Shown: piece by piece, positions 2,347 to 24,445 of the stretch | Layout: each line of letters opens with the position of its first letter | Position numbering within the stretch: position 1 is the stretch's first letter | Source of the DNA: Candidatus Staskawiczbacteria bacterium | GTDB taxonomy: Bacteria; Patescibacteriota; Minisyncoccia; Minisyncoccales; Staskawiczbacteraceae | Length of the DNA stretch: 42,156 nt | Assembly (NCBI GenBank): GCA_026395175.1 | Contig: JAPLZF010000012.1 | Coordinates: 1-42,156, forward strand | Direction: 5' to 3' | Made by a program: the position numbers and the translations under genes | Notes under the pieces: model-generated | Told to the model about the DNA's origin: nothing | Database searches by the model: none | Seen by the model: only the letters and a program-made list of their open reading frames with translations

Positions 2347-2379
2347 CTATTCTATCACAAGAGAAAAGAGCAGGCACTA

Positions 2380-2408
2380 TTGACAAGGCTATCCATAAAT
2401 GCTATAAT
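2380..2408 (+). promoter_or_regulatory. Perfect consensus sigma70-type promoter
   Basis: TTGACA (2380-2385), 17-nt spacer, TATAAT (2403-2408). Confidence 0.8.
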
Positions 2409-2435
2409 AAAACGAGTATAAAGTACATTGAAATT

Positions 2436-2550
2436 GGGACATGCCCTTCTTTCAAATCATTAGTCGAATACAGAATAAATCGCAGAATAGCAGATTTTTC
2501 AGAAATTAAATTAAGTTCTTTAGTGATTTGAAAGAAGGGATGTGTGTCCC
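2436..2550 (+). promoter_or_regulatory. Structured leader (long inverted repeat) upstream of GC-rich orphan gene
   Basis: gggacatgcccttctttcaaatca (2436-2459) is the near-perfect reverse complement of tgatttgaaagaagggatgtgtgtccc (2524-2550). Confidence 0.7.
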
Positions 2551-2612
2551 TCAAATGGAAATGTTCCGTGCCGGTGGTCGGTGCGGAGTTCTACCGATGG
2601 AAGGGAACTGCA

Positions 2613-3122
2613 ATGAACGAGATTCTGGTTGTGCCACGTCGTTTAGGGTGTGTCGCTTGGATATCGAACACTCTGATGGTCCCGCTGATGTATTTTTTGG
2701 CGGGAACACTGCGGGAAAAACCGCAACAAACCCACCCTTGGACATGCCAGCGGTTGAAACCAGACGAAGCCACCCGTATGGAGGAGTCAGCAATGGCTCA
2801 TCTCACGGCCGTGGGAAAAGCGATCCAACACCATCACTGGTGGGATCCGCGGTTTCACATGCCAATCTTCACCGGTTGGCGGCAGTACGCTGTCTTAGAC
2901 AGCATGTTTGGCGGACCATGGTACGTAGGTTGGCGAGTGTCCGGTGGAGAGACCGCCGAAGTATCCCGTATGTCGCAAGTTGGACCCATCAGGGTTCTGC
3001 TCGGGCCGAAGGACGTTTCGTTCTTTGGCGTTGACGACAACGGCGTTCAAGTTCCGATTCACCAAATCGGCGGAGGTCGGATAGGCGATGGCGGGCCGTT
3101 CTCACAAGTTCCGCTTTCATAG
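2613..3122 (+). CDS. Hypothetical protein of GC-rich orphan cassette (alternative GTG start at 2544)
   Basis: MNEILVVPRRLGCVAW...PWYVGWRVSGGE...GPIRVLLGPKDVSFFGVDDNGVQVPIHQ; GAAGGGAA Shine-Dalgarno-like stretch upstream of ATG 2613; own promoter and terminator. Confidence 0.6.
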   Translation: MNEILVVPRRLGCVAWISNTLMVPLMYFLAGTLREKPQQTHPWTCQRLKPDEATRMEESAMAHLTAVGKAIQHHHWWDPRFHMPIFTGWRQYAVLDSMFGGPWYVGWRVSGGETAEVSRMSQVGPIRVLLGPKDVSFFGVDDNGVQVPIHQIGGGRIGDGGPFSQVPLS

Positions 3123-3148
3123 GTTCTCCTGGGAAGGAGAGCGAATAT

Positions 3149-3190
3149 GTCCCAGATCACGTCGTGATGATGTTTTCTGGGACTTTTTAT
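3149..3190 (+). terminator. Rho-independent terminator of the orphan cassette
   Basis: GTCCCAGA...TCTGGGAC stem followed by TTTTTATTTG. Confidence 0.75.
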
Positions 3191-3238
3191 TTGTTCCATT
3201 TATTTGCTCTATTTTACTCTCCCTTTTTATTCTTTCTA

Positions 3239-3280
3239 CTAGGTTCACAATCTACGCTATCGCGTAGTTATTGAACCTAG
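3239..3280. repeat. Palindromic repeat A (left of PaaX/Cas2-like gene)
   Basis: CTAGGTTCACAATCTACGCTATCGCGTAGTTATTGAACCTAG; CTAGGTTCA/TGAACCTAG and TACGC/GCGTA arms. Confidence 0.85.
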
Positions 3281-3306
3281 TTGTATTTTATAGTAATATA
3301 AATAAA

Positions 3307-3843
3307 ATGAATGCAATTAGAGAAAAAATTTTATTGCTTTTATTGGGCGGGGTTGCTTTTGGGTATAGCATTACGCCCGGCAAACAAAGAATGGTTTTAA
3401 GAACTATCTCAAGAGAATGGAACAAAATAAACAAGAGAGAATTAAGAGAGGGGATTAAATATTTATACAAATTAGATTTTATTGATAAAGATGTTTCTAA
3501 AAATGGGTTTGTGAAATTGTCTTTAACTAAAAAAGGCAGGTTGAAATTATTGAATTGCAGGCTGAATAATCTTAAAAACAAAAAAGTTAAATGGGATGAA
3601 AAATGGCGAATGGTTGCCTTTGATGTTCCAGAAAAATACAAAAGCGGAAGAGATGCTTTGCGTCGAAAATTAAGGTCTGTAGGATTTTGCGAACTTCAAA
3701 AGAGCGTTTTTGTAACGTCAATTGATTGTGAAAAAGAAATAGAATCGCTGGTTAATTTTTTTAGGCTTGAAAAGTATGTTCGTTTCGGAGTTTTAGATAA
3801 AATTGACAATGAAAAACACCTTAAAAAATTATTTAAATTATAA
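3307..3843 (+). CDS. PaaX/Cas2-like protein (winged-helix-like N-terminus plus ferredoxin-like Cas2/PaaX domain)
   Basis: WDEKWRMVAFDVPEKYKSGRDALRRKLRSVGFCELQKSVFVTS resembles the PaaX central/Cas2-like domain; ATG 3307 preferred over the TTG at 3271 inside the palindrome. Confidence 0.65.
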   Translation: MNAIREKILLLLLGGVAFGYSITPGKQRMVLRTISREWNKINKRELREGIKYLYKLDFIDKDVSKNGFVKLSLTKKGRLKLLNCRLNNLKNKKVKWDEKWRMVAFDVPEKYKSGRDALRRKLRSVGFCELQKSVFVTSIDCEKEIESLVNFFRLEKYVRFGVLDKIDNEKHLKKLFKL

Positions 3844-3848
3844 TTAAA

Positions 3849-3865
3849 TTGTAGCCACGCTACAA
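3849..3865. repeat. Short perfect hairpin just after the PaaX/Cas2-like gene
   Basis: TTGTAGC-CAC-GCTACAA. Confidence 0.6.
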
Positions 3866-3870
3866 TACGA

Positions 3871-3910
3871 CTAGGTTCACAATCTACGCTATCGCGTATT
3901 TAGTGAACCT
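3871..3910. repeat. Palindromic repeat B (right of PaaX/Cas2-like gene)
   Basis: CTAGGTTCACAATCTACGCTATCGCGTATTTAGTGAACCT; first 28 nt identical to repeat A. Confidence 0.85.
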
Positions 3911-3969
3911 ACGGCTAAAATTAAAGCAAAAGTTTTGAATTTTTTAGTATTTTTTGCTATTATAAGCCA

Positions 3970-4539
3970 ATGGAAAAAAGACATCGAGTTTTTATTGCTA
4001 TCAATTTGCCGGGGGAGATAAAAAAAGAGCTAGCTGGGTTTTATGATAAATGGCCAGAATTGCCGGCAAAGTGGACAGCTAAGGATAACTTGCATATTAC
4101 CTTGGAGTTCTTGGGCGACTTAACCGATGTTGAAATTGGCGACGCCTGCAAAATTACAGCCGAAGTTGTAAAAAGGCATAACTCTTTTGATTTAAATTTG
4201 AATAAGATTTTGTATGGTCCTCCCAAAAAGAATCCGCCACGCTTGGTCTGGGTGGAAGGGCAAGAATCAAAAGAGCTGGCAGATTTAAAAAATGATTTGC
4301 AGGAATCTTTGCTGGAAAAAATAAGATTTAGGCCCGATGAAAAAGGATTTGTTACGCACATCACTTTGGCAAGAATTTCAGAGTGGGAATTTAGAAAATT
4401 TGAGCTAGAAGAAAGACCTGAAATTAATGAAAACATTGACTTAATGTTTACAGCAGAATCAATTGAGGTTATGGAGTCAGAATTAAAACGTGGAGGACCG
4501 GTTTATACAATTTTAGAGTCGCATAATTTAGGAGAATAA
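3970..4539 (+). CDS. thpR: RNA 2',3'-cyclic phosphodiesterase (2H family)
   Basis: Two HxT motifs (HITLEFLG, HITLARI). Confidence 0.88.
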   Translation: MEKRHRVFIAINLPGEIKKELAGFYDKWPELPAKWTAKDNLHITLEFLGDLTDVEIGDACKITAEVVKRHNSFDLNLNKILYGPPKKNPPRLVWVEGQESKELADLKNDLQESLLEKIRFRPDEKGFVTHITLARISEWEFRKFELEERPEINENIDLMFTAESIEVMESELKRGGPVYTILESHNLGE

Positions 4540-22404: not shown

Positions 22405-22416
22405 ATTGTTGGTAGC

Positions 22417-22440
22417 AGTCAGGTTGTCGTACGGCAACCT
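22417..22440. repeat. Palindromic repeat P1, left 24-bp terminal inverted repeat
   Basis: AGTCAGGTTGTCGTACGGCAACCT. Confidence 0.85.
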
Positions 22441-22630
22441 AATGCTTTATAATAACCTTTAATTTATTTAAATCAATGTCCTTTTTAAAAATTATGAAAT
22501 CTCTTCCCATCTTCATTGCCTTGATTGAACCATTGTGTATTCGTTTTAATACAGATTGCTTGCTAATTCCCAGAATAACCACTAATTCGTTTGTCGTATA
22601 AAAGTCTTTTTCTTTTATTATTTTACTCAT
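22439..22630 (-). CDS. Small HTH DNA-binding protein (excisionase/MerR-like)
   Basis: MSKIIKEKDFYTTNELVVILGISKQSVLKRIHNGSIKAMKMGRDFIIFKKDIDLNKLKVIIKH; ATG 22630 preferred over TTG 22654 in the palindrome. Confidence 0.75.
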   Translation of the reverse strand: MSKIIKEKDFYTTNELVVILGISKQSVLKRIHNGSIKAMKMGRDFIIFKKDIDLNKLKVIIKH

Positions 22631-22637
22631 GTTTTTC

Positions 22638-22657
22638 AGGTTGTCGTACGACAACCT
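22638..22657. repeat. Palindromic repeat P2 (perfect 20-bp palindrome between the two accessory genes)
   Basis: AGGTTGTCGTACGACAACCT. Confidence 0.9.
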
Positions 22658-24401: not shown

Positions 24402-24421
24402 GTTTTTGTCTTGAATTATTC

Positions 24422-24445
24422 AGGTTGCCGTACGACAACCTGACT
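24422..24445. repeat. Palindromic repeat P3, right 24-bp terminal inverted repeat
   Basis: AGGTTGCCGTACGACAACCTGACT, exact reverse complement of 22417-22440. Confidence 0.85.

Follow-up and report, generated by a model that had tools for sequence, protein, structure and literature searches.

REP/RAYT systems (TnpAREP; PMC2817692, PMC8266576) consist of one small gene located between two palindromes, with cognate palindromes dispersed alone and mostly in intergenic positions. Their gene lineages are old and diverged and their dispersed palindromes younger, the palindrome arms show compensatory changes, and target duplication is not seen. All these features are shared by the unit described here, from a genome of Candidatus Staskawiczbacteria; however, its protein joins a winged helix to a Cas2 fold instead of the Y1/HUH fold, a GTAG head is not general, the palindrome pairs are of mixed orientation, while RAYTs are described with inverted REPs, and few solo copies were found per genome. 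For some palindromic repeat families, such as the CGTC REPs, the mobilising enzyme is unknown (PMC3733652).

Four other systems have some features in common with the unit. PaaX regulators (E. coli PaaX 8a39, Rv0674) also carry a winged helix followed by a Cas2-like domain, match the PaaX_M profile and give the best fold match, but the family described here is shorter (about 180 aa), multi-copy and bracketed by palindromes, and keeps the Cas2 Asp and QxS that E. coli PaaX lacks. The ferredoxin fold and the active-site residues are common to Cas2/VapD nucleases; in contrast to these, the family occurs in a genus devoid of Cas1 and has an extra DNA-binding domain and its own palindromes. With casposons and CRISPR adaptation it has in common a Cas-type protein that possibly acts on short palindromic repeats, but no Cas1 integrase. 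As in insertion sequences, a discrete unit is absent at orthologous sites in relatives, at gene-junction resolution, but recent near-identical copies were not seen within any of six genomes.

The window locus and its protein

The window, i.e., the whole stretch of DNA analysed (42,156 nucleotides), belongs to a host genome of 744 kb in 19 contigs. The 28-mer CTAGGTTCACAATCTACGCTATCGCGTA is found exactly at positions 3239-3266 and 3871-3898 and at no third site in the window, where shuffles expect 0. It starts both the left palindrome (CTAGGTTCACAATCTACGCTATCGCGTAGTTATTGAACCTAG, with core GCTATCGC; 3239-3280) and the right palindrome (CTAGGTTCACAATCTACGCTATCGCGTATTTAGTGAACCTAC; 3871-3912), which lie in the same orientation and form a repeat pair of 42 bp with 95% identity; neither is assigned a strand. 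Both palindromes are imperfect, with single-strand folding z-scores of -7.1 to -7.9 (about -7.1 for the left one), and no shuffle folded equally well. The original prediction of two palindromic repeats with 28 identical leading bases in direct orientation was thus confirmed, as were the coordinates of the left repeat; the right one, predicted to end at 3910, extends to about 3912. A small hairpin (ATTGTAGCCACGCTACAAT; 3848-3866, no strand) is located between the stop codon and the right palindrome and is terminator-like on the minus strand only. Neither palindrome was called as an intrinsic terminator in a scan of positions 3100-4100, and that identity was rejected. A structured RNA family was also discarded: the sole Rfam match was MIR2599 at 2435-2550, far under the family gathering score.

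The whole insert (2347-3969, no strand) lies between an HHH_8 gene (complement 1651-2346) and a LigT gene (3970-4539). Its GC-rich part, 2347-3238, is separate from the palindrome-gene-palindrome unit; the stretch at 2400-3200 contains an orphan ORF (2544-3122) preceded by a 19-bp inverted repeat (2444-2462/2521-2539). In the genomes G002, G005, and G010, the HHH_8/LigT junction contains other cassettes that are also GC-rich but unrelated.

The gene between the palindromes (3307-3843, plus strand) encodes a protein of 178 aa, with a winged-helix region at residues ~1-93 and a Cas2-like domain at ~95-166 that contains D106, R115, Q131, and S133. The Cas2/PaaX-like assignment of this ORF was borne out by Pfam, where the protein matches PaaX_M, "central Cas2-like domain" (PF20803), with an E-value of 2.4e-21, and CRISPR_Cas2 falls slightly under the cut-off; against the full-length PaaX model TIGR02277 it reaches 35 bits vs. 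a cut-off of 264.55 bits. All 31 aligned family members match PaaX_M and none of them Y1_Tnp. The AlphaFold2 model (pLDDT 83.5) shows an N-terminal winged-helix-like region, which is assigned from this model and has no curated HTH match, and a ferredoxin-like domain. Its best PDB fold matches, none with an E-value below 1e-3, are E. coli PaaX (8a39), Rv0674 and Cas2 proteins, and no PDB relative was found by sequence profile.

Of 102 family proteins, 100 keep the Cas2 active-site Asp (D106), and the other two copies have N in place of the catalytic D; R115, Q131, and S133 are kept in all 102. At the positions of Asp and QxS, E. coli PaaX reads LLLLSEG and LAPS, respectively. The activity of Cas2-type nucleases depends in part on the Asp and on the Q-Y-S region (PMC10491678), so a catalytic role of the Cas2-like domain is plausible from residue conservation; such residues can also be kept for structural reasons. 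The absence of other cas genes, noted for the window along with that of a CRISPR array, was upheld as to Cas1, which was undetectable in the host genome and in all 12 genomes of the genus and absent from 33 of the 36 genomes of the taxonomic family. A CRISPR remnant was ruled out by the lack of Cas1 in the genus.

A family of genes bracketed by their own palindromes

The host genome carries six copies of the gene: that of the window and five whose products show 31-65% identity to the window protein, the sixth being an intact ORF when its frame was read. Sister species carry 0-12 copies. The share of genomes carrying the gene was 25 of 36 in the taxonomic family, 39 of 119 among those sampled from the order and 10 of 287 among those sampled from the phylum, each wider level being searched at a stricter threshold. 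A single-sequence query with the window protein gave two named relatives, from Candidatus Nealsonbacteria and Staskawiczbacteria. No relatives were found among IMG/VR contigs by a pattern-based search, and viral carriage was rejected.

In the first 31 loci, every copy has its own palindrome pair and units measure 638-732 bp; a few of the pairs do not exceed the top 5% of cross-pair controls in score. A uniform set of 107 genes, 102 of them with full flanks, gave a median unit length of 677 bp and a repeat pair at a score of at least 38 in 86 of 102 copies (1.1% of controls), or at least 30 in 95 of 102 (8.2% of controls). This survey ruled out a single-gene coincidence. The genome-wide search suggested by the original prediction returned further copies in the host genome and in relatives, nearly all of them bracketed by matching palindromes. 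Palindrome-bracketed Cas2-fold genes are thus a real class, and no description of such a unit was found in the open-licence papers searched. The class is REP/RAYT-like in its behaviour and its protein is unrelated to RAYT.

Palindromes are specific to protein lineages, and the more similar two proteins are, the more similar are their palindromes (Mantel r 0.46; 0 of 1000 permutations). An RCGATCGY-like core, to which the window core conforms, is common to all lineages: in centre-aligned palindromes of both sides, C occupies position -3 in 86-87% and G position +3 in 83-86%. Pairing is loose at positions 5-8, and the outer arms (positions 9-17) are variable in sequence but 73-93% complementary, mostly with all four Watson-Crick pair types. 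The mean palindrome score was 13.6 vs. 5.2 in shuffles, which are the fair comparison since palindrome centres were picked for symmetry. Such symmetry is compatible both with a hairpin and with recognition of two half-sites by a dimer. The direct orientation of the pair fits better in 44 of 86 units and the inverted one in 18. A GTAG head was found in 14 of 86 cases (7.4 in shuffles) and GTGG on six (4.1 in shuffles); a RAYT-type head is thus not characteristic of the family.

Other genes of these genomes are also bracketed by palindromes. ArsR-like genes of 91 aa, found in 17 of the 36 family genomes (e.g., G001:C17:28218-28578, L041:2107-2490 and loci L245-L271), constitute a second family, without nuclease domain, and have their own palindromes on both sides in 22 of 26 loci. 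HTH_17-like proteins of about 70 aa lie between AGGTT..AACCT palindromes in several loci. One of them is in the window, where a 71-aa HTH gene (22439-22654; excisionase/MerR-like by eye) is bracketed by AGGTTGTCGTACGACAACCT palindromes (22415-22657), with a third copy near 24416 (24416-24441); similar units were observed in G005 and G007. Both labels, ArsR and HTH_17, were assigned by inspection of the sequences instead of a profile search. As the ArsR-like protein shows the two-palindrome layout without a nuclease domain, this layout needs no Cas2 domain. The ArsR-like and HTH_17-like units may be parallel systems moved otherwise; alternatively, the bracketing may mark DNA-binding proteins with paired operators.

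Empty junctions and solo palindromes

The gene order EF-P, HHH, LigT, MurC is kept in the sister species where enough of the contig could be read. Seven of them (G001, G003, G006, G007, G008, G009, and G011) show the window junction without the unit, G011 with a small different insert in its place, and G005 has there a related unit, 73% identical. The search for empty sites in relatives thus found empty orthologous junctions, and the locus varies within the clade. For most of 32 units in four genomes, the flanking genes adjoin without the unit in one or more sister species, and the unit present at some junctions differs from species to species. Empty sites were resolved at gene-junction level, the exact sites being blurred by species-level divergence, and no cognate palindrome was seen in those empty junctions of sister species that were printed. 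Relatives at different sites (83% nucleotide identity) match approximately from palindrome to palindrome, with flanks at chance level. These comparisons support the predicted single-gene mobile unit of REP/RAYT-like layout with a Cas2-fold protein, and from them we infer that the unit has moved. In the same region of G009, between LigT and MurC, a MITE-like insert with terminal inverted repeats (TTCACCCCCACACCA...) was observed (L040:2061-2257).

Units are co-directional with their neighbouring genes in 51 cases and opposite in eight (p 9e-9), as expected from either strand-biased insertion or selection. Target-site duplication was undetected (3.26 vs. 3.29 in controls). A GTTTA tandem array lies immediately downstream of the C9:55345 unit (L007:2120-2222). 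The best within-genome protein identity between copies was 55-76% across six genomes, with no near-identical gene copies inside one genome, so recent transposition of the gene was not seen. Horizontal transfer between genera was considered for one pair with 87% protein identity vs. a host median of 71%, and not upheld, as this value is inside the host range.

Outside the units, solo matches to unit palindromes were found at 40 loci, vs. a mean of 0.2 for arm-shuffled palindromes, and in 10 of the 40 the matched stretch is 100% identical to that of an element palindrome. Among the 28 intergenic solos, three are in divergent gaps and five in convergent gaps (expected 17% and 10%, respectively); solos are thus not enriched at promoter-bearing gaps. 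Given that gene copies within a genome are old and diverged, spreading seems to be easier for solo palindromes than for the gene, which parallels REP/RAYT. Some solos could be scars of lost units.

Interpretation and significance

On balance, we consider it slightly more probable than not that the unit is a REP/RAYT-like repeat-spreading element built on a Cas2-fold protein that nicks or cuts at its palindrome. The gene product, probably dimeric, would combine the winged helix with the Cas2-like ferredoxin domain. Its targets would be the cognate palindromes of 34-42 bp, whose outer arms differ between lineages around the common core, both those that end the unit and the solo copies. The Cas2-like domain, with the active-site Asp and QxS kept, would nick or cut DNA at the palindrome. 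This cleavage would allow transfer from one intergenic site to another, of solo palindromes and, less often, of the whole unit of ~0.68 kb, with the protein as the putative driver. A narrower proposal, in which a winged-helix nuclease of the Cas2 fold serves a palindromic-repeat element as its dedicated enzyme, is more tentative, and we place it slightly below an even chance.

A possible but less probable explanation is that the protein acts solely as a transcription factor, like PaaX, with the left palindrome as its own operator by the promoter and the right one as a second operator; solos would be other operators or relics, and the unit would be carried by recombination or by unrelated enzymes. 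The PaaX_M assignment, PaaX as best fold, the lack of recent gene copies and the ArsR-like and HTH_17-like genes, which show the layout without a catalytic domain, are all consistent with it, and the centre of the left palindrome is located a median of 47.5 bp upstream of the start codon, and TATAAT occurs close to this palindrome in 32 of 90 cases. However, the centre of the right palindrome is a median of 25 bp past the stop codon, with TATAAT nearby in just 12 of 90, solos are not enriched at promoter-bearing gaps, and the Cas2 active site is kept despite its absence from E. coli PaaX.

The bias toward direct pairs, the common solos and the Cas2-like fold would also suit a gene that inserts into an existing palindrome and duplicates it, as Cas1-Cas2 does with the CRISPR repeat, leaving solos as unoccupied targets. 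This seems improbable, as the printed empty junctions showed no cognate palindrome, inverted pairs exist, palindrome sequence tracks the protein and the genus is devoid of Cas1. Still less credit is due to a toxin-antitoxin or defence unit, in which a VapD/Cas2-like RNase would work with a structured RNA: the Cas2/VapD fold and weak PADLOC Cas2 matches point to it, but the unit has no partner gene, its palindromes flank both sides and are dispersed alone, and no Rfam match was convincing. The least probable reading makes the unit a passenger mobilised in trans by the Y1 (RAYT) transposases of these genomes. Genuine Y1 RAYT genes with their own palindromes coexist with the Cas2-fold family (G000 C19:54546-55394 and C16:153563-154351, with three palindrome copies each); however, GTAG heads are scarce, and no Y1 transposase match was found in G005, G020, and G027, which carry nine, five, and four family copies, respectively, so Y1 RAYTs are not required.

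The pairing of a Cas2-fold protein with its own palindromes would make this family a candidate non-HUH enzyme for palindromic repeats that lack a known one. The family is widespread in the ultra-small Patescibacteria and offers dozens of ready protein-palindrome pairs for recognition tests. If the repeat-spreading reading is true, Cas2-like domains would serve in DNA mobility without Cas1, in addition to the uses of the fold in CRISPR adaptation, PaaX regulation and VapD-type RNases, and REP-like repeats would have a non-HUH route of dispersal.
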